Positions 3,892-13,160 of a stretch of 64,000 nt of DNA are shown here, piece after piece. Numbering within the stretch: position 1 is the first letter of the stretch; each line of letters starts with the position of its first letter. The position numbers and the translations under genes are program-made. Location of the stretch: positions 83,036 through 147,035 of the forward strand of contig JANQOW010000007.1 in NCBI GenBank assembly GCA_028285595.1, written 5' to 3'. The notes beneath the pieces were generated by a model. It was not told the DNA's origin, ran no database searches, and saw only the letters and a list, made by a program, of their open reading frames with translations. The stretch is from Hyphomicrobiales bacterium. Lineage in GTDB: Bacteria; Pseudomonadota; Alphaproteobacteria; Rhizobiales; CAJQND01.

Positions 3892-4503
3892 CTACTTGTT
3901 GGTCCCGGTAGAACTCACTCTGGTTCCACCAAGTTTAGCGATGAGTGCATTTACATTGCCGCCACCTTGGCGGATGATGGACTGGTAATTGGATTTGAGA
4001 AGCTGGGCCAGCCAGACGTTTTGTACGTTGAGGTCGGTGACTTTTCCGCCCTTAACCCGCCAGAGCAGCTTCTGCGGTACCCCGCCATTGAGCCGTAGTA
4101 ATTTCGTTTCAACAATCGATCCTCGGCAGCGGACAACCTTAATCGATTGAGCTTTGAATTTGCCTGAGAACTGAACGAGGTTCCGGGCCACGTATCTGCT
4201 GGTGAGGCGCGTGATCTGTTTCCTTTGCGGCCCGCTTGCCTTGGCACGATGCTTTCCCAGTGCCAGCATGGAGACCCTGTTGAGATCCACATAGCGGTTA
4301 AGAGCAGAGGAAAAGGCGGACGTTGAGCGTGACCTTGCCGCCTTGATAAAAGTTGCTCCAGCGCGCGCGACGACGCCACTGTTTGCGCAGGCTGAAGCGC
4401 TAACGGGCGCTGCGAGCAGCACGCTGAATACGATTGCCGTCGATACCAAGGACGAACGCACGCCCCTAAGGTTGTGCCCTTCTGCGTGAGATTGATATTG
4501 CAT
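3892..4503 (-). CDS. MlaC/Ttg2D-family periplasmic phospholipid-binding protein
   Basis: 203 residues from the ATG at 4503, chosen because GGAAA lies 8 bases upstream; upstream in-frame ATGs (to 4569) also exist. A hydrophobic signal segment (SSLVSTAIVFSVLLAAPVSA) precedes the mature protein. The mature region has the MlaC pattern of a basic helical N-terminal half (NRYVDLNRVSMLALGKHR, TSRYVARNLVQF) and C-terminal strands ending WRVKGGKVTDLNVQNVWLAQ and LLKSNYQSII. MlaC proteins shuttle phospholipids between the outer and inner membranes, but here no mlaE, mlaF or mlaD is adjacent. The gene is therefore an orphan shuttle, or works with machinery elsewhere. Confidence 0.72.
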   Translation of the reverse strand: MQYQSHAEGHNLRGVRSSLVSTAIVFSVLLAAPVSASACANSGVVARAGATFIKAARSRSTSAFSSALNRYVDLNRVSMLALGKHRAKASGPQRKQITRLTSRYVARNLVQFSGKFKAQSIKVVRCRGSIVETKLLRLNGGVPQKLLWRVKGGKVTDLNVQNVWLAQLLKSNYQSIIRQGGGNVNALIAKLGGTRVSSTGTNK

Positions 4504-4582
4504 GGTTTGTGTTTCCATCATTCGGCTGAGATTTAACCTAAGGTCTTTTGATATTCGCTCAGAGCTCACGTCTGTTGAAGCT

Positions 4583-4599: not shown

Positions 4600-6366
4600 T
4601 TACAGCGGTAAGCTCGCCTCGAGGCCGGCCTTTCGCAGGCCGGCAAGAAAGTGCGCATCCTCGTCGCGATTTTTGAACATGGGTGTCGATGCCCATTTCA
4701 CGGCGAATCCTGGTTGAGATAACTCGCAAGCGCTCAGGGCGATTTTTGCATCATCCACTTGATCCAGATGCCCAAGCGCCGAGGCGAGAATGAGCAGCGC
4801 GAGCGGATAGTTTGCGGCGTGGCTGAGGGCGGTACGTGCCTCAATGGCCGCCTTCTCGGGATTTCGGGCGCTCAACTGTGAGCGTGCGAGACAGCACAGA
4901 ATGAACTGAATGCGCGGGTTGCGCGGGTTCACGCGGATGGACTGCTCAAACATCGGCAGGCTGTCGAGGGCACGTCCAGAGTAGCACAGCGCAAGACCGA
5001 GTTGAGCCAGAGCCACATAGTTGCTGGGGTTCAACGCTACCGCCCGTTCGCCCTCGGCGATGCCCATATCGAAGTCATGTGACCACATGAAGCCAAATCC
5101 CAGCATGCTGTGCGCCATGGAATCGTTGGGATCAAACTTCACAGCCATCCGAGCGGTTCTGATCTGCTCCTTGATGGTGTGATCACGGTCTTCGGCAAAG
5201 CCAAACCAGATGTCACGATGATGCGTGTATGCCAGACCCGTAAAAGCCTGTGCATAGTCCGGATCAAGCGCTAATGCCTGCTCGAACAACTGTCTTGCTT
5301 GCTCGTTATCATCTTCTGTCCACTGGTCGAGATACAGCATGCCCCGCTGCACCAGTTCCCAAGCTTGCAAGGAAGAAGAACGTTTGGTGTCAAGCCGCCG
5401 CTGCTCTGCTTTTTCAAGCTCCGGCGCGATGATGCCGGCGAGATAGCGGGTGATTTCATCTTGGACTTCAAAAATGTCTTCAACACTGCGGTCGAACTTC
5501 TCCGCCCACGTGTGATGTCCTGTATCGGCGTCAATCAACTGGGCATTCACCCGGACCCGCTCGCCGGATTTTCTGACACTTCCCTCAAGCACGTATCGCG
5601 CATTCAGGTCCTGCGCGACGGCGCGGATATCCGGAGAACGGCCTTTGTAGGCAAATGTTGAGTTGCGGGCGATTACCGGAAACGTCCGCCAGGCTGCCAG
5701 GGCCGTGATGAGGTCCTCCGTGAGCCCATCGACAAAATGCTCGTCCTGAGGATCACTGCTCATGTTGTCAAAGGGCAGAACCGCGATGGCAGGCGCCTCT
5801 GCAGTGAGGTCGCTCGTGCCGTTGGTTTGCGCCGCAACAATTGGCGGCGCGTCATTTGGCGGTGGAATGCGGTAGATGTGAACGGAACGGTCGATGTTTT
5901 TCAGGTCGAACAAGCCAAGGTCTTCAAACTGAACATCCACCCGGCCCACAATGTTCTGGTGAACACTGTCGGACACACAGATGCCGCCGGGCTCTGCGAG
6001 GGGTTCCAATCGGGCAGCGATATTGACACCGTCCCCCAAATAATCGCCGGCTGTCACCACAACGTCGCCCAGATGGATGCCGATGCGCATCTGGATGACA
6101 GCCTCTGCGTCAGCACCGTCATTGATCTCGGCGAAGATCTCCTGCACCTCGATCGCGCACTCCACGGCATTCATGACGCTGCCAAACTCGGCAAGAACAC
6201 TGTCGCCGGCCGAGTTGAAGATGCTGCCGTTGTGATCTTCAATACACTCTCTGACAAACCTGAAGCACGCTTCCAGGTTCTGAAGCGCTTTGGTTTCGTT
6301 GGTGCTCACCAAGCGGCTGTATCCAACGATATCACCAACCAAGATTGCAATGAGCTTGCGGTCCAT
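4600..6366 (-). CDS. Class III cyclase - TolB-like - TPR fusion
   Basis: 588 residues, cytosolic. Residues 1-165 are a class III cyclase domain: metal Asp12 (VGDIVGYSRL), Asp55 (NSAGDSV), Asn115 and Arg119 (GDGVNIAARLE). The position usually held by the purine-specifying Lys (four before Asp55) is Asn51, so nucleotide preference is uncertain. Residues about 190-310 are a TolB/FlgO-like domain (AIAVLPFDNMSSD, FVDGLTEDL). Residues about 330-580 are TPR repeats (ALDPDYAQAFTGLAY, ALNPSNYVALAQLG). This architecture is common in rhizobia. The gene starts 8 bases after the channel gene's stop and is the third gene of that operon. Confidence 0.9.
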   Translation of the reverse strand: MDRKLIAILVGDIVGYSRLVSTNETKALQNLEACFRFVRECIEDHNGSIFNSAGDSVLAEFGSVMNAVECAIEVQEIFAEINDGADAEAVIQMRIGIHLGDVVVTAGDYLGDGVNIAARLEPLAEPGGICVSDSVHQNIVGRVDVQFEDLGLFDLKNIDRSVHIYRIPPPNDAPPIVAAQTNGTSDLTAEAPAIAVLPFDNMSSDPQDEHFVDGLTEDLITALAAWRTFPVIARNSTFAYKGRSPDIRAVAQDLNARYVLEGSVRKSGERVRVNAQLIDADTGHHTWAEKFDRSVEDIFEVQDEITRYLAGIIAPELEKAEQRRLDTKRSSSLQAWELVQRGMLYLDQWTEDDNEQARQLFEQALALDPDYAQAFTGLAYTHHRDIWFGFAEDRDHTIKEQIRTARMAVKFDPNDSMAHSMLGFGFMWSHDFDMGIAEGERAVALNPSNYVALAQLGLALCYSGRALDSLPMFEQSIRVNPRNPRIQFILCCLARSQLSARNPEKAAIEARTALSHAANYPLALLILASALGHLDQVDDAKIALSACELSQPGFAVKWASTPMFKNRDEDAHFLAGLRKAGLEASLPL

Positions 6367-6374
6367 GACGTCCC

Positions 6375-7112
6375 TCAGTCTTCCGGGTTGGATTTGCTGG
6401 CCATCAGCAATTCATCCAGCCGGGACATGCCTGGCTCATCCGCCTCCGGTAGCGGCGGAGCCACGCCCTTAAAATTGCCCACCAGGTGTGCAATCAGAAT
6501 TGCCAGGTAAATGGTTCCCGTGATCGCCTGAACGCTGGCCAGCGCGCGGGCAAAATCTGAGACGGGAGCAAAATCGCCATATCCGAGCGTTGTGAGGGTG
6601 GCAAAGCTAAAGTAGAGCAGCGCGTTCCAATGACTGGTTGCTTGTCCCACCGGAACGTTCAAAGCGGTTGGATCCAGGGTCTGCAGCAGGGAATAGGCAG
6701 CCGCCCATGCAACGCCTAGGAGAATGTAAGCGCTGATCGCTGCACAAAGTTCTTCGGTTCCCACAGTGCCGGACTGTAAGGCCCGGCGCATTGTGCTCTC
6801 TATCGCGAACGCACAGACAACGACCAAAGCGACATCCATGCCCACCAGCGACACTGGACCGTTGGAGTATGCGTGCCCCAGTGTCAGCGCAAACCAAACC
6901 AACACCACAGCCAAGGTCAGGGCTTTACGGGTTGCCGTCAGCGCGAAGCAGAGGACGACGATTGAGAAGAGGACCGCCACATCCACCGCGGCGAAGGGAC
7001 CGGGACCAAACAGAGGGGCAATCACGATCAAACCCACCAACGCACACAACAATAGTGCGAAGCGGTGACGTGTCAGCACGGAACTGGCCGCATGCGAAAC
7101 CTGATCACTCAT
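6375..7112 (-). CDS. Two-transmembrane K+ channel-type ion channel
   Basis: 245 residues from the ATG at 7112. That ATG overlaps the stop of the upstream gene by 8 bases and is preferred to the in-frame start at 7136. Several N-terminal hydrophobic segments precede a pore loop with an intact potassium selectivity filter (TLTTLGYGDFAP, about residues 180-191) and a final inner helix (AITGTIYLAILIAHLVG). The cytosolic tail is only about 35 residues (SRLDELLMASKSN), so there is no cyclic-nucleotide-binding or RCK domain. Transcriptional coupling to the cyclase at 4600-6366 suggests linked signalling, but ligand gating is not shown by the sequence. Confidence 0.85.
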   Translation of the reverse strand: MSDQVSHAASSVLTRHRFALLLCALVGLIVIAPLFGPGPFAAVDVAVLFSIVVLCFALTATRKALTLAVVLVWFALTLGHAYSNGPVSLVGMDVALVVVCAFAIESTMRRALQSGTVGTEELCAAISAYILLGVAWAAAYSLLQTLDPTALNVPVGQATSHWNALLYFSFATLTTLGYGDFAPVSDFARALASVQAITGTIYLAILIAHLVGNFKGVAPPLPEADEPGMSRLDELLMASKSNPED

Positions 7113-7410
7113 CGCCGTCATCCAGAAGTTCACCAATGCGGCGCAGTTCGAGAATGATCACCCCAAGGGCGATGAGCATGGCGCTTTGCAGGAGGCCTTG
7201 GTTCAATGCATCTTCCACCAAGACCTGGGCAGGTGTGAGGGACGTGCGTTCATAGACGCTCAGCCCAATGGTCACCAGTAGGCTCCAAGCGCCCCAGGCG
7301 ACCACCCCAATTCCCGTGGTCAGGCCTAGCAACCCGGTCATCCACATCATCAGGCGATTGGCCTTACGTGTCTCCGCCTTGCGATTGGCTTCGGTCAGTC
7401 TTGTGCTCAT
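7105..7410 (-). CDS. Small two-helix membrane protein, first gene of channel-cyclase operon
   Basis: 101 residues of unrecognised family. A basic N-terminus (LTEANRKAETRKANRLMMW) is followed by two transmembrane helices (about 22-48 and 71-88) and an acidic tail (LRRIGELLDDGDE). The stop codon overlaps the start of the channel gene by 8 bases, so the two are translationally coupled. It may be an accessory subunit of the channel. A TGTAAC-type palindrome lies 63 bases upstream of the start. Confidence 0.7.
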   Translation of the reverse strand: MSTRLTEANRKAETRKANRLMMWMTGLLGLTTGIGVVAWGAWSLLVTIGLSVYERTSLTPAQVLVEDALNQGLLQSAMLIALGVIILELRRIGELLDDGDE

Positions 7411-7508: not shown

Positions 7509-8678
7509 TTAGCCCGCAACTTCAGGATCGCGAAGGTATGGGAACGTCTGGCTTGCGGGCTTTGTCGGCTGGTCAACGCCGTCGCTGATCTCCTCGCGAT
7601 TTCGCGCCATCAGGAACGTGTACTGGATGTCGCAGATATCATCATCGAGCCAACGTCCCCCGCCTGTCTTATGTTCGCGCCCCTCAACGATCGCCTTCTC
7701 GATTTCGAACCAGCTGCCATTGCCCACCGGCTTGGACAGGTCGATCACCGTGAAGTCTGCCATGTGCAGGGCCGTGAGTGGATGGATGCCATCCTTCATG
7801 GCCCAATCTTCCTGGCCATCCATCGTGTCCATGCGGCGAAGGTTGGCGTTGAAGCGGGCCTGGAGCGGTTCGGCATAGGCTCCCGGCTCACCGAAGAGAT
7901 CGCGCTGATTGAAAATGTCGCGCACGTCGATCGTTGTGTTGACTTTGTCGTAGCCAGGATCGGCGAGGATGACGTTAGTGATCTCAGGCCGCCCAAAGGT
8001 GTCAAGCACAACGGATTTTCCACCGCGGGATCTGACTTCGGAAATCACGCCATACATCCCGTCGGGCTTCGTCAGAAAGCGTTCGCGGTCAACCTCTACA
8101 ATAATGCTCAGGATATTGAGGCCCTGCGCAGTGTTCTTGCCGATGAAGTTCAGCCGACCTTCTTTCATGGAGCGTACATATCCGGCCACATCCATGAAGA
8201 ACGGATCAAGGCGCAATCCGGCGAACACTTTAAGGCCAGTCTTTTGGAACTCAGCCTCGGGCGTTCCCTGGCCCACAGTGAAGTGGAGTTCACCACCCGG
8301 CGAATGGCAATGTCCTGCCTGCTTCTCCCCGGATGGCGATGTCTTCAGATCTGAGAACACGCATCTAAATGAGATTTCCTGTTTCCCAACCGAAAAGCCT
8401 GCCTCGACACCGGTCCCTGAGATTGCGACAGGGCGAAGACGGAAGCGGTAGTCCAGGGCGTGGGAGAACCAGCGCTTTGTGCCGGCGTTCGGTATCACGT
8501 TCATGACCAAGACCAGACGCTCCGGTTTCTCCGGACTGGGGAAGACGTACATGTCGGTGATATCTGTGGTCGGGTCGCCCAGGACAGCCGGCCCGTCGAA
8601 ATGATCAGATGCTGCGGCGGGTGTTACGGCCAAGGCCATGGTCGCGGCAGCCATTGCCAAAAGCTTGCGGATCTTCAT
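7509..8678 (-). CDS. Secreted DUF4331-family protein
   Basis: 389 residues with a clear signal peptide (KIRKLLAMAAATMALAVTPAAA, cut before SDHFDGP). The mature start SDHFDGPAVLGDPTTDITDM and then YVFPSPEKPERLVLVM is typical of DUF4331 proteins, whose biochemical role is unknown. A good ribosome-binding site (GGAGA) precedes 8678. It is the last gene of a four-gene minus-strand unit, 37 bases after the DyP-type peroxidase stop. The exported location contrasts with the apparently cytosolic peroxidase, so a direct complex in one compartment is not obvious. Confidence 0.85.
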   Translation of the reverse strand: MKIRKLLAMAAATMALAVTPAAASDHFDGPAVLGDPTTDITDMYVFPSPEKPERLVLVMNVIPNAGTKRWFSHALDYRFRLRPVAISGTGVEAGFSVGKQEISFRCVFSDLKTSPSGEKQAGHCHSPGGELHFTVGQGTPEAEFQKTGLKVFAGLRLDPFFMDVAGYVRSMKEGRLNFIGKNTAQGLNILSIIVEVDRERFLTKPDGMYGVISEVRSRGGKSVVLDTFGRPEITNVILADPGYDKVNTTIDVRDIFNQRDLFGEPGAYAEPLQARFNANLRRMDTMDGQEDWAMKDGIHPLTALHMADFTVIDLSKPVGNGSWFEIEKAIVEGREHKTGGGRWLDDDICDIQYTFLMARNREEISDGVDQPTKPASQTFPYLRDPEVAG

Positions 8679-8715
8679 TGGAACTCTCCATCAGGCTTGG
8701 TGTTAGGGACAAGGG

Positions 8716-10131
8716 TCAGTCTGAGAACGCGCCGGCCGCAATGCCGTGGAGGGCGCTGAGGCTCGGGACGAAGAAATACTCACCGCCGTCGGTGGTCACG
8801 AACTGGCGGACATCGAAAAGGAAGGGCATGTCGGCGCCGGGCACCGTGAACTGGCCACCCTCGCCGTTGGCGCCTATCAATGGATCTTTCTCCTCACTGG
8901 GCAGCCCGGCGAAGTCGCCTTTCTGGATCCAATCGGCCTGCATGAACTCAAACTGCAACTCCAGATCAGCGACCACAAACAGGCCGGCAAGACCGCGCGG
9001 GACGCCGTCATCGGGCGCGCCTTCAGGAAGCGGCGGTCCGAATTCAAGGCCGCGGCGCAGGATGCGTTTTCGATTAATGTCGGTGGGCGTCTTGATCGCA
9101 GATTTGCGCGGATTGACGCGGCGCAAGTGCGCGCCGAGCGGGCATTTCAGACCCTCGGGGTCGTCTGAATAGTCGAAATCATTGACCCGGTTGGGATCGT
9201 CAGCGAGTTCGTGATCGTCGTGATCGGGTGAAAGGGCGAGAGGACAGCCGGAGCGCCAGCGCCCGACGATCTTGGCCGCCATCTTCTCCTGATGGACTTC
9301 GTCATCATTGCCCCAAAGGCCCATGGCACCTTGTTTGAGGTACTCGCGAAAACCTGCAACGTCCTGGGCCACCTTGCGGAAGGCGATGTATGTGCCATTG
9401 ACCCCTAACTCGTGCGGTGTGGGGGTGGCGGTCGCCTCGCCTAACTCGTTCATGTAGCCAAGCAGAAATTCGCCCGGTTCGATGCCGCGCCAGCCGTCGC
9501 CATCCCGGGCGCCATTGCCCGGTGCGGCTTCCCCAAGGCCAGCAATCGCCGGCTGCGAAATCGGATCGACGAAACCGAAATGTGCGGCCGGGCAGCCGGA
9601 GCGCTGTTCGAACACAACAGCTGCCTCAACGAAATGCCGTTCGGTCACACCATAACCTGCCGCTTCTTCCTTCAACTGGCGCCGTTGGTCATCGACGGCC
9701 TGGCTGTCCGGGCCCGTAAAGGTGACCATGACGTGGATGTCCGATGTTCCAAGACCGCCTTCCCAGTTTGACGGATCGCCGGCCCCCGTGTCGCCAAGAC
9801 GGTGCGCACGTGCGGCCATCCCTTGCACAAAGGCGTGTGGGAAACTTGCTCGCGTTGCTTCAGAGATGGCCAGCGCTTCCAGGCCGAAGGGAGAGAAGCA
9901 GACGTTTAATGTCTGTTCCGGCGGGGACGTTGACCGTGCAACTTCTGACGTCGTTACCCGGTCTGCCAAGGAGCTGAGCCAATCGCGGCCACGTTCGGCG
10001 CTGCCGATAGTGAAGAAGATGTAGGCGCACGCAAGTGTGTCGTACTCTTCCAGAACGCCTCCCTGGATGTCATTAAGATTGTCCTTCAGATCCTCCGCCG
10101 TAAGCGGTGTCGCAGGTCGTGTGTTGAGCAT
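8716..10131 (-). CDS. DyP-type heme peroxidase
   Basis: 471 residues from the ATG at 10131, where TGGAGA gives the best ribosome-binding site; in-frame ATGs at 10143 and 10182 are alternatives. DyP peroxidases oxidise dyes, phenolics or heme-related substrates with H2O2. Visible landmarks are NDIQGGVLEEY near the N-terminus, GFVDPISQP (Asp189, the catalytic acid of the GxxDG motif), CPLGAHLRRVNPR (proximal heme ligand His335) and RRGLEFGP with the distal Arg (about 360). The C-terminal EYFFVPSLSALHG is also typical. The residue after Asp189 is Pro instead of the usual Gly. There is no Tat or Sec signal. It is third in the operon after two tandem paralogues. Confidence 0.9.
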   Translation of the reverse strand: MLNTRPATPLTAEDLKDNLNDIQGGVLEEYDTLACAYIFFTIGSAERGRDWLSSLADRVTTSEVARSTSPPEQTLNVCFSPFGLEALAISEATRASFPHAFVQGMAARAHRLGDTGAGDPSNWEGGLGTSDIHVMVTFTGPDSQAVDDQRRQLKEEAAGYGVTERHFVEAAVVFEQRSGCPAAHFGFVDPISQPAIAGLGEAAPGNGARDGDGWRGIEPGEFLLGYMNELGEATATPTPHELGVNGTYIAFRKVAQDVAGFREYLKQGAMGLWGNDDEVHQEKMAAKIVGRWRSGCPLALSPDHDDHELADDPNRVNDFDYSDDPEGLKCPLGAHLRRVNPRKSAIKTPTDINRKRILRRGLEFGPPLPEGAPDDGVPRGLAGLFVVADLELQFEFMQADWIQKGDFAGLPSEEKDPLIGANGEGGQFTVPGADMPFLFDVRQFVTTDGGEYFFVPSLSALHGIAAGAFSD

Positions 10132-10226
10132 GACGGTCTCCATAGGGCTTGCGAAAGTCTCTTTGGGGAGCAACCGGGCCATCGCGGATGGCCCGGTGGT
10201 TTGAGAGAAGGACGAGTAGCTGACCG

Positions 10227-10760
10227 CTACATGCCGGAAACGGTTTGACCGACGGCAATATCGTTGGCCGGCCGGGCGAGGGATTTCTGGAACTCCATCA
10301 CCTTGTTGCGCCAATCGGCATCCCGGTGGATCTGATTGACCGTAAGTTCCGGATAGGCGCAGTAGTAGCCAAACGTTTCGACCTGATGCTGGCCGAAGTA
10401 ATCAAGGATCTTGGTGAACTCGTCCTCTGGCCCGGGCGCGCCTTCCATGTGTTCAAGAAGCTTGCGCAGGGGACCTTCGAGTTCCTTGAAGACCTCAAAG
10501 TAGGCCACGAGGTCGCCATCGAAGTTCGTTTGCCAGATGAAGTGATCACGATCGACCCGCGTGCAGCAGAAGAGGTGGATCAGTGACATCTCATTCAGGG
10601 CATCAGCGAATTCTTTTGAGCCGATTTGATCGGCAATCGCCTTTGCGTGAGCATCCGGATCATCCTTCTTCAAGGGAAAGAGAGCGGCATACGCGGTAAT
10701 GTTGTTAGCGACCTGGATCGTAGGGCTCAGGCCGAATTTGAGGGAACCATCGATTCTCAT
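10227..10760 (-). CDS. Tandem paralogue 2 upstream of DyP peroxidase, possible ferredoxin-like fold
   Basis: 177 residues from the ATG at 10760 (AAGGAA at good spacing; the open frame runs further upstream but overlaps the preceding gene's region). It is clearly homologous end to end to the gene at 10811-11356: shared SLIHLFCCTR versus KVIHIIGFYR, TNFDGD, YYCAYPELTVNQ and RDADWRNKVMEFQKSLA. The pattern of an initial strand, IH-strand, TNFDG and C-terminal helices resembles dimeric alpha/beta-barrel (ferredoxin-like) proteins, the fold class that also builds DyP peroxidases. The function is unknown; an accessory or substrate-handling partner of the peroxidase is inference. Confidence 0.75.
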   Translation of the reverse strand: MRIDGSLKFGLSPTIQVANNITAYAALFPLKKDDPDAHAKAIADQIGSKEFADALNEMSLIHLFCCTRVDRDHFIWQTNFDGDLVAYFEVFKELEGPLRKLLEHMEGAPGPEDEFTKILDYFGQHQVETFGYYCAYPELTVNQIHRDADWRNKVMEFQKSLARPANDIAVGQTVSGM

Positions 10761-10810
10761 GGCTTTGTTCCTTGTGAGTAAGTTTGGGTGTGGCAGGCCA
10801 GATGTCGCCG

Positions 10811-11356
10811 CTACAGGCCTGTTGCTATTTCTGCCGTGACGACGTGATCCGCCGGCTTGGCGAGCGATTTCTGGAGATCCATCATCTTGTTGCGCCAGTC
10901 GGCGTCGCGGTACAGCTGGTTGATGGTCAAAGCCGGATAGGCGCAATAATAGGAGACGACATCGACACCTTCCTGCGCGGATGCCAGAAATTCACCAATC
11001 GCCGTGACACCGGCATCCGGCCCCGGAAAGCCCTCAAAATGCTGTAGGGCTCTGCGCACCAGGTCTGGATTAGCGTTGATGATGATTTCCCAATAATCAA
11101 CGATATCGCCACCGTCGAAGTTCGTTTGCACAAAAACCTGGTCACGGCTGATCCGATAGAATCCGATGATATGGATCACCTTGAACTCTTGAAAAGCATC
11201 CAGGACCTCCTGTGAGGTGAGGAGATCGACCAAAGCGGCGGCATGGCCATCCGGATCATCCTGTTTCAGAGTCAAAATCGCATTGTACGAGCACATGTTC
11301 TTGCCGAGTACGGGCGTCGGCTTCATGCCGTACTTGAGTTTTCCGTTGCTTCCCAT
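10811..11356 (-). CDS. Tandem paralogue 1 upstream of DyP peroxidase, possible ferredoxin-like fold
   Basis: 181 residues from the ATG at 11356, selected because the paralogue aligns from this point (GKLKYGMKPTPV versus GSLKFGLSPTIQ). Conserved elements are VIHIIGFYRISRDQVFVQ, TNFDGGDIVDYWEI, FEGFPGPDAG, YYCAYPALTINQ and DADWRNKMMDLQKSLAKPA. It has no signal peptide and no cysteine pair. It is the first gene of the unit running to the DUF4331 gene and is divergent from the TolB/TPR regulator at 11532, with 175 bases between. It arose by tandem duplication with the next gene. Confidence 0.75.
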   Translation of the reverse strand: MGSNGKLKYGMKPTPVLGKNMCSYNAILTLKQDDPDGHAAALVDLLTSQEVLDAFQEFKVIHIIGFYRISRDQVFVQTNFDGGDIVDYWEIIINANPDLVRRALQHFEGFPGPDAGVTAIGEFLASAQEGVDVVSYYCAYPALTINQLYRDADWRNKMMDLQKSLAKPADHVVTAEIATGL

Positions 11357-11531
11357 CGCTTTGCTCCGTTGCGTAATTAAGCGGGTTTTCTCAAATCGGT
11401 CCGGCGTCAATCAGCGCTGTCGCTCGTCCGTGAGCTGCACATTGCCCGGCACGCGCTTGCTATGAGAGAGAGTCACGGTTAGGTAATGTGTTAGACGTGC
11501 GTCTTTTTGGCCTTGAAACCTGAGAAGCCCT

Positions 11532-13160
11532 ATGGGTGAGCAAATTGAAGACACGACACTGCGAGACGTGGCACGCCCGACAGACGAAGAAATTCGCTCA
11601 GCCTTAAGGCGGGTCACGAGCCAGGCGCCGTTTGCTCAATCGCACCGGCTATCGAAGTTTCTGAGCTACATTGTTGAGGAAACACTGGCCGGCCGGAGCG
11701 AGAAGATCGGCGGTTATGCGGTTGGTCTCGACGTGTTCGAGAAGCCAGAAGATTTTGATCCCAGGATCGATACGAATGTGCGCGTGGAAGCCAGTCGGAT
11801 GCGGCGGCGGCTGGGCGATTACTACCGCGATGCGGGCGTTGAGGATCCGGTAGAGATCATTGTTCCTAAGGGCAGTTACGTCCCAGAATTCAAGTATCGT
11901 TCTGGGCAGCTCGCCTGCGCACCAGCCGCCCCGTCTGATGCGCCAAGGCCCCAAGACCACAGGCCATCGATTGCGGTTCTGCCGTTCAATACGCACAGCA
12001 GCAAGTTCGATGATCAGTTCTTTGCTGATGGTTTGACGGAAGAAACCATCGCCAATCTTGCCCGGTTCAAAGAGCTCTCCGTGTTCTCGCGCACAACGTC
12101 ATCGAAACTGGTTCGAGAGGGTTTGGATGTCCGGCAGGTCCATAAGGAACTTGGAGCCGATTTCGTGGTCGAAGGAAGTGTCCGCAAATCGGAGAGACTG
12201 GTGCGTGTCACGGTGCAATTGATTGATGCGGCTGCGGATGTTCATGTTCTGAGCGAGAAGTTTGAACGGCCGTGTACGCCGGACGGCGTATTTGAGATCC
12301 AAGATGAAATTGCATTGCTGGTTGCCGGTCGGATCGCCGGCCACCACGGACCCATTGGACGCTACATCTCGCGTGCGCGCAGAACAGGCAAGTCCCAGCA
12401 ATGGGAGACTTACTATTGGATCCACCGCTTCTATGCCTATTACGCAATCCATAGCCCTGAGCAGCATCAGGAGGTGCGCGACGGTCTAGCAGAAGCGATT
12501 GAGAAGGATGAGGATGCATCGGACGCACTGGCGGCCATGGCTATTTTGCTGCTCGACGAATATCGCTTCCACATGAATGAACGGCCAGGCTTTGACGCCT
12601 TGGAGCTGGGATTTGCACATGCACTGCGGGCTGCCACATCCGATCCGGACAGCGCGTTTGCTTATCACGCGCTTGCCATGGCTTATTTCCACCGGCGCGA
12701 GTTCTCTGAGTTCCAGGCCTCAGCAGAAAGGGCGCTCAGTCTCAATCCAGGCCATGCGGACATGCTCGCAGATTTGGGTACCTGCTATTGCGGGCTGGGA
12801 GATTGGGACCGTGGCCTAGCGTTGATCGATCGAGCTATCGATCTAAGCCCGGTGCATCCAGGCTGGTATCAGCTGATGCCGGCTTGCCGCCATGCACTCG
12901 ATGGCGAGTTCGAAGATGCTGTTGATGAGTTGAGGAGCTCGCCCCTTCCTGGAATGTACTGGTATCATGCCTGCCTTTCCTGGTTCTTGGCCGAACTTGA
13001 TCAGGATGCAGCACGCGCAGAGGAGATGAGGGCGCTTGAGGCAGTCTTTCCCGATTTTGCCGAGCATGCAAAACGCGAGTGCCAAATCTGGTGTTTGCAC
13101 GACGAGTTGGAAGAAGGGCTTATCGCCGGCTTGCGTAAGGCAGGTGTAAACGTCGCTTGA
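11532..13160 (+). CDS. TolB-like/TPR regulator-type protein, paralogue B
   Basis: 542 residues, colinear along the whole length with the protein at 253-1875. The N-terminal helical module (HRLSKFLSYIVEETLAG, FDPRIDTNVRVEASRMRRR) is followed by a TolB/FlgO-like domain (SIAVLPFNTH, FFADGLTEETIANLARF, GSVRKSE, VTVQLIDAAAD). TPR-like repeats complete it (AFAYHALAMAYFHRREFSEF, NPGHADMLADLG, SPVHPGWYQ) and the end is GLIAGLRKAGVNVA. It is soluble with no enzyme domain. It is divergent from the peroxidase operon, so it is the natural candidate regulator or signalling partner of that unit, and convergent with the porin gene (14-base gap). Confidence 0.85.
   Translation: MGEQIEDTTLRDVARPTDEEIRSALRRVTSQAPFAQSHRLSKFLSYIVEETLAGRSEKIGGYAVGLDVFEKPEDFDPRIDTNVRVEASRMRRRLGDYYRDAGVEDPVEIIVPKGSYVPEFKYRSGQLACAPAAPSDAPRPQDHRPSIAVLPFNTHSSKFDDQFFADGLTEETIANLARFKELSVFSRTTSSKLVREGLDVRQVHKELGADFVVEGSVRKSERLVRVTVQLIDAAADVHVLSEKFERPCTPDGVFEIQDEIALLVAGRIAGHHGPIGRYISRARRTGKSQQWETYYWIHRFYAYYAIHSPEQHQEVRDGLAEAIEKDEDASDALAAMAILLLDEYRFHMNERPGFDALELGFAHALRAATSDPDSAFAYHALAMAYFHRREFSEFQASAERALSLNPGHADMLADLGTCYCGLGDWDRGLALIDRAIDLSPVHPGWYQLMPACRHALDGEFEDAVDELRSSPLPGMYWYHACLSWFLAELDQDAARAEEMRALEAVFPDFAEHAKRECQIWCLHDELEEGLIAGLRKAGVNVA

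Follow-up and report, generated by a model that had tools for sequence, protein, structure and literature searches.

To our knowledge, there is no agreement on the physiological substrate of DyP-type heme peroxidases, and several of them are nearly inactive at neutral pH. The solved structure nearest to the peroxidase studied here is DrDyP of Deinococcus radiodurans (DR_A0145; PDB 8RE2/8RE3), with approximately 38% amino acid identity (E 1e-78). Purified alone, DrDyP shows almost no activity above pH 4. Its heme is six-coordinate and low-spin at pH 7.5, restoring the Gly of its motif has no effect, and its authors speculated about control by other proteins (PMC10820274). The DrDyP protein and the catalase-like protein DR_A0146 increase after UVC/vacuum stress (PMC5731708). 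In the D. radiodurans locus, a gene homologous to the small partner genes described below lies directly upstream of DrDyP (E 2e-36), as in our locus, and DrDyP was apparently characterised in the absence of this partner. The D. radiodurans locus carries a catalase-like gene downstream of the peroxidase gene and, unlike our locus, no DUF4331 gene.

The gene row, its peroxidase and the partner proteins

The window, that is, the whole stretch of 64,000 nucleotides analysed from a Hyphomicrobiales bacterium, contains a minus-strand row of four genes with a divergent fifth gene (Table 1). An earlier sequence-only reading had described two tandem homologous proteins, a DyP, an exported DUF4331 protein and a divergent TolB/TPR gene, and all of these genes were found as placed. 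The intervals within the row are 50, 95 and 37 bp. A megablast search of the window region against plasmids gave no match.

Table 1. Features of the partner-DyP row and of the neighbouring unit 2 (window positions unless a contig is named)
Feature	Position	Strand	Description
Partner B (PART)	10811-11356	-	181 aa ORF, first gene of the row, predicted alpha+beta barrel
Partner A (PART)	10227-10760	-	177 aa ORF, 45% identical to partner B
DyP-type heme peroxidase	8716-10131	-	471 aa, Pfam DyP_N match
DUF4331 protein, predicted exported	7509-8678	-	389 aa, signal-peptide-like N-terminus, Pfam DUF4331 match
TolB-domain/TPR protein, candidate regulator or scaffold	11532-13160	+	542 aa, divergent, Pfam TPR matches
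Divergent intergenic region	11357-11531		175 bp, holds TCCGTTGCGTAA at 11365
Unit 2 (partner, DyP, catalase-like gene, divergent TolB/TPR gene)	1-1875; L005:9989-14910		spans the left edge of the window
Unit 2 TolB/TPR protein	169-1875 = L005:13204-14910	+	remaining unit 2 genes just beyond the window

The window DyP matches Pfam DyP_N with 48.7 bits (cut-off 27.5) and NCBIfam TIGR01413 with 88.6 bits, under the cut-off of 100.5. As in DrDyP, the distal Asp, proximal His and catalytic Arg are kept (aligned to D189, H324 and R348 of DrDyP). The strict GXXDG fingerprint is absent from the window DyP, which reads GFVDP with Pro as the fifth residue. DrDyP, with Met at this position, nevertheless counts as a DyP (PMC10820274), so the Pro alone does not place the window protein outside the superfamily. 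The closest DyP found shares 75% amino acid identity with that of the window and lies on a contig binned as Leptolyngbyaceae cyanobacterium, reflecting either mis-binning or a recent transfer.

For partners A and B, neither Pfam nor NCBIfam gave a match at E ≤1, and the partner alignment, searched against PDB profiles, returned chance matches only. Partner A shares up to 61% amino acid identity with single partners from Rhodovibrionaceae/Kiloniellales MAGs. The residues IH, NFDG and AYP are conserved among the partners; we know of no recognised catalytic set that corresponds to them. The structure model of the partner (pLDDT 82.7, pTM 0.70) has a beta-alpha-beta-beta-alpha core. Foldseek returned nothing at E ≤0.001 for this model, while the VIA-align list consists mostly of dimeric alpha-beta barrel proteins, the best of them with a Z score of 7.7 (rmsd 2.9, 97 residues), which is within the range of common arrangements. 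The model thus agrees, short of proof, with the earlier suggestion that the tandem proteins are ferredoxin-like barrels.

Two-copy partners are encoded by tandem genes in the window, in Actinomycetota and in Granulicella and occur elsewhere as fused double domains, and one genome of the class (G320) has three copies. In the partner tree, both window copies fall inside one small group that includes single-copy relatives, indicating that the window pair arose separately from other pairs. The recurrent doubling would suit a dimeric working form.

Association of the partner with one DyP clade

Profile searches (partner, E ≤1e-4; window-like DyP, E ≤1e-20) retrieved the partner and the window-clade DyP from an identical set of 12 of the 385 genomes of the class. 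A Dyp_perox_C match was found in 29 genomes of the class, 4 with the partner and 25 without it, showing that the partner tracks one DyP clade and not DyPs generally. Partner and DyP genes are adjacent at 13 of 14 DyP sites in these genomes; at the remaining site (G091), both lie at contig ends. Plasmids of Proteobacteria, Actinomycetota, Cyanobacteriota, Acidobacteriota and Deinococcota supplied 27 DyP loci. The partner lies alongside in 24 of them, mostly directly upstream, although 4 of these 24 had been chosen because the partner matched there too. The three plasmid DyPs without a partner are 30–32% identical to the window DyP and form a separate clade in the DyP tree. Partner and DyP are fused in a single ORF at three loci (L049, L050 and L117), and a plasmid of Pararhizobium qamdonense encodes P450, two partner domains and DyP in one ORF of 1423 aa (L102:3109-7380).

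The latter ORF is annotated merely as a cytochrome P450. An insertion sequence splits the partner from the DyP in Rhizobium sp. T136 (L055:4747-6003); the two genes are adjacent in Rhizobium sp. CC1099.

The genome under study has three partner-DyP units. Unit 2 lies 10 kb from the row, its partner gene starts at window position 69, and its divergent TolB/TPR gene is homologous to that of the row. In unit 3, located on another contig, the partner is a double protein that contains transmembrane segments; a DyP follows it, and then a catalase-like gene on the opposite strand.

Clustering in other genomes, on which the sequence-only reading depended, was also observed. The partner-DyP-DUF4331 arrangement recurs in Rhizobium, Sinorhizobium, Bradyrhizobium, Streptomyces and one more genome of the class, and the set is conserved. 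A chance neighbourhood is ruled out by the co-occurrence of partner and DyP, the fusions, the recurrence in other phyla and the second unit 10 kb away. The partner-DyP set is a real, conserved gene module, which a literature search on DyP gene context, oxylipins and patatin/catalase did not find described. The partnership of the small protein with this DyP clade is well supported, and the two very probably depend on each other.

Third genes and the divergent TolB/TPR gene

The third gene beside partner and DyP is one of three alternatives, encoding a catalase-like protein, a cytochrome P450 or DUF4331. Two kinds occur together at only one of 47 loci, in Methylorubrum, where the P450 comes with a ferredoxin and reductase of its own; eight loci have none of the three. 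The probability of so little overlap is approximately 0.03 for catalase-like/DUF4331, 0.04 for P450/DUF4331 and 0.002 for catalase-like/P450, values that assume independence among loci that are not independent. A constant place for DUF4331 in the set is not supported, since a catalase-like protein or P450 stands in its place in most relatives. In the DyP tree, the window DyP nests among relatives with a catalase-like gene, and those of G320 and Bradyrhizobium CB82 nest next to Deinococcus, suggesting that DUF4331 probably replaced the catalase-like gene at least twice.

The I-helix acid is missing in 13 of the 15 linked P450s (IPTT, PPQPP, GPTT or MGGT at this site), some of which have lost the Thr as well; it is kept in L044 and L049. 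Three control P450s, two from elsewhere on the L049 contig and that of Methylorubrum, are all canonical. A P450 with neither the I-helix acid nor a reductase most likely works with peroxide or hydroperoxide, as is established for CYP152 and CYP74. Having lost the acid needed for ordinary O2 activation, these 13 linked P450s probably use peroxide or hydroperoxide too. Such a P450 fits a neighbouring peroxidase and is the strongest hint at the chemistry. A DyP-P450 fusion in G091 (L134) has a P450 with no acid and a degenerate cysteine loop, and this domain may have ceased to be a heme-thiolate protein.

The window DUF4331 protein matches Pfam PF14224 with 103.7 bits (cut-off 27), and its predicted mature N-terminus is SDHFDGP. 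In all 16 DUF4331 proteins examined, Ser or Ala, then Ser or Asp, then His follow directly after the start codon or an AXA-type signal-peptidase site, the cleavage sites being called by eye. In the ATCUN motif, which binds Cu or Ni, the His is at residue 3 (PMC7701195). The His of mature DUF4331 would occupy the same position, making it a possible ATCUN site. Cytosolic and exported members share this N-terminus, a hint that it matters in its own right.

The six plasmid DUF4331 genes nearest to that of the window (34–45% identity) all begin right after a DyP gene; one more distant plasmid gene that was checked does not. In contrast to the exported window protein, six DyP-linked DUF4331 relatives begin at the start codon. 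The window DyP and partners, unlike the window DUF4331, have no signal peptide. With DUF4331 alone predicted to be exported, its direct coupling to the DyP is doubtful in the window. No DUF4331 was found in the viral contigs searched, and a literature search found no paper that mentions it. That DUF4331 is an equivalent second-step protein is a possibility that we put forward tentatively.

In the divergent TolB/TPR protein, TPR matches lie above the Pfam cut-off, and TolB_N scores 16.3 bits, below the cut-off of 22.4. In the structure model, the TolB-like domain matches TolB structures (Z approximately 15 over approximately 120 residues), and TPR matches as well. Residues 1–120 match no Pfam model and no PDB profile; they are conserved among homologues and are modelled as helices with a beta hairpin. 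A regulator role is unproven because these first 120 residues match nothing. The earlier view of this gene as a regulator was not confirmed: no DNA-binding domain was identified in the protein, and joint regulation is hinted at solely by a 12-mer, TCCGTTGCGTAA, common to the divergent regions of the row and unit 2 (window positions 11365 and 145). Approximately 0.004 shared 12-mers would be expected by chance between the two regions. The copy at 11365 overlaps the probable ribosome-binding site of partner B. The 12-mer is a candidate operator, and control by the TolB/TPR protein is plausible. An operator common to the relatives was rejected, as the 12-mer occurs in the two promoters of this genome and not in the corresponding regions of relatives. 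A divergent TolB/TPR homologue is kept in five units, those of the window, unit 2, L031, L032 and L042, and such homologues are divergent in close relatives only.

Another gene of the window (4600-6366) encodes a protein in which an adenylate/guanylate cyclase domain is joined to TolB-like and TPR parts homologous to the divergent TolB/TPR genes. A potassium-channel-like gene (6375-7136) lies upstream of it and an MlaC-like lipid transport gene (3892-4569) downstream.

Possible function and relation to known systems

We propose a two-component heme peroxidase as the product of the row, with the partners and the DyP as its core. The partners (two here; elsewhere a single one or a double domain in one chain) would assemble into a dimeric alpha+beta barrel acting together with the DyP, possibly in a physical complex. 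The barrel may activate the DyP or present to it a hydrophobic, probably lipid-derived substrate, which the DyP would oxidise with peroxide. The oxidised hydrophobic product would then pass to the third protein, DUF4331 here and a catalase-like hemoprotein or acid-less P450 in relatives. We give this explanation as a whole, a two-protein peroxidase core handing its product to a third protein, an even chance of being right. The heme- or peroxide-linked oxidation system suggested earlier is compatible with the gene set.

The putative substrate was judged from neighbouring genes. Plasmids of Roseomonas, Sphingobium and Shinella (L111, L114 and L116) carry a block of oleate hydratase, 3-hydroxyacyl-CoA dehydrogenase, thioesterase, TetR, catalase-like, partner and DyP genes, with transposases beside two of the blocks. 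The three blocks are near-identical and thus count as one event; by its gene content, the block is a predicted mobile lipid-oxidation cassette. A 3-hydroxyacyl-CoA dehydrogenase gene also lies near partner-DyP in Deinococcus and Acinetobacter, a patatin gene in Sphingomonas and a planctomycete, and an LCAT-like hydrolase is among the neighbours of partner-DyP loci. An SRPBCC domain (Polyketide_cyc2) is fused to DUF4331 in three loci. The transmembrane segments in the unit 3 partner are a further hint at lipids. Lipid-related neighbours are frequent across loci, not universal, and the window row itself contains no lipid enzyme. Lipid or fatty-acid oxidation appears to be the best reading of these recurring neighbours, and we hold it with moderate confidence. 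SRPBCC and barrel folds are found in polyketide enzymes too, and a polyketide-like or aromatic substrate is a possible alternative.

The leading alternative is peroxide detoxification, in which DyP, partner and catalase-like protein would remove H2O2 or organic peroxides during oxidative stress and DUF4331 would bind metal or heme in the periplasm and limit damage. The rise of DR_A0145 and DR_A0146 after UVC/vacuum (PMC5731708) is in line with it, as are the resemblance of the DUF4331 N-terminus to a Cu/Ni site and the counting of DR_A0146 as a catalase whose transcript needs a CRP regulator (PMC7143949, PMC4868304). However, DR_A0146 scavenges H2O2 more weakly than KatE1 (PMC7143949), the module occurs rarely and patchily for a stress defence, and linked genes such as those for acid-less P450s, oleate hydratase, thioesterase and patatin speak for a metabolic product. 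We consider detoxification unlikely.

Returning to the proposed peroxidase core, its most specific form is an oxidised-lipid system that makes oxylipin-like signals or modified membrane lipids, with a partner that is obligate for the whole DyP clade and either activates the DyP or delivers its substrate, three unrelated but interchangeable second-step enzymes and a DUF4331 with an N-terminal copper site. Taken with all these details, it is also rather unlikely; if true, DUF4331 would represent a new class of metalloenzymes.

A more improbable view is the tailoring of a non-lipid, aromatic or polyketide-like small molecule, with the partner barrels as an ABM-type cyclase or monooxygenase and DyP, P450 and SRPBCC as further steps. 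The best fold neighbours of the partner model include the TcmI cyclase, ActVA-Orf6, SnoaB and WhiE-ORFI, and such a pathway would suit the Polyketide_cyc2 fusions and the genes adjoining the Rhizobium locus, identified by eye as acetoacetate decarboxylase-like and SDR. No polyketide synthase or assembly-line gene was found near any locus, however, and the conserved partner residues fit no recognised catalytic set. It is least probable that TolB/TPR and DUF4331 are mere neighbours of a true unit of partner and DyP. In favour of this view, the partner occurs in only 2 of the 10 genomes of the class with DUF4331, and divergent TolB/TPR homologues are restricted to close relatives; against it, the six nearest plasmid DUF4331 genes all follow a DyP and five units retain the divergent gene.

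These results name a missing partner for one DyP clade, the crystallised enzyme included, and the two can be co-expressed at once. DUF4331 gains its first testable role, and the linked P450s form a set that probably needs no reductase.

Among described systems, the fungal D-type and bacterial enzymes with solved structures DyP (2d3q), DyP2 (4g2c) and Alr1585 (5c2i) belong to the same superfamily as the window DyP but are farther from it (E 1e-24 to 1e-49) than DrDyP. The predicted fold of the partner is similar to the dimeric alpha-beta barrels of antibiotic-biosynthesis monooxygenases, NIPSNAP and IsdG, from which it differs in having no Pfam, NCBIfam or PDB-profile match and a longer C-terminal helical part. 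The linked P450s, compared at the I-helix only, share with the CYP152 peroxygenases and the hydroperoxide-rearranging CYP74 P450s the loss of the usual acid-alcohol arrangement; in the linked P450s, the acid is mostly replaced by Pro or Gly and the Thr is often kept. Linoleate diol synthases are heme peroxidase-P450 fusions of oxylipin biosynthesis. Their oxidase domain is cyclooxygenase-like and unrelated to the DyP of the fusions L102 and L036, but in both cases one chain joins a peroxidase to a P450 that is predicted to lack normal O2 activation.
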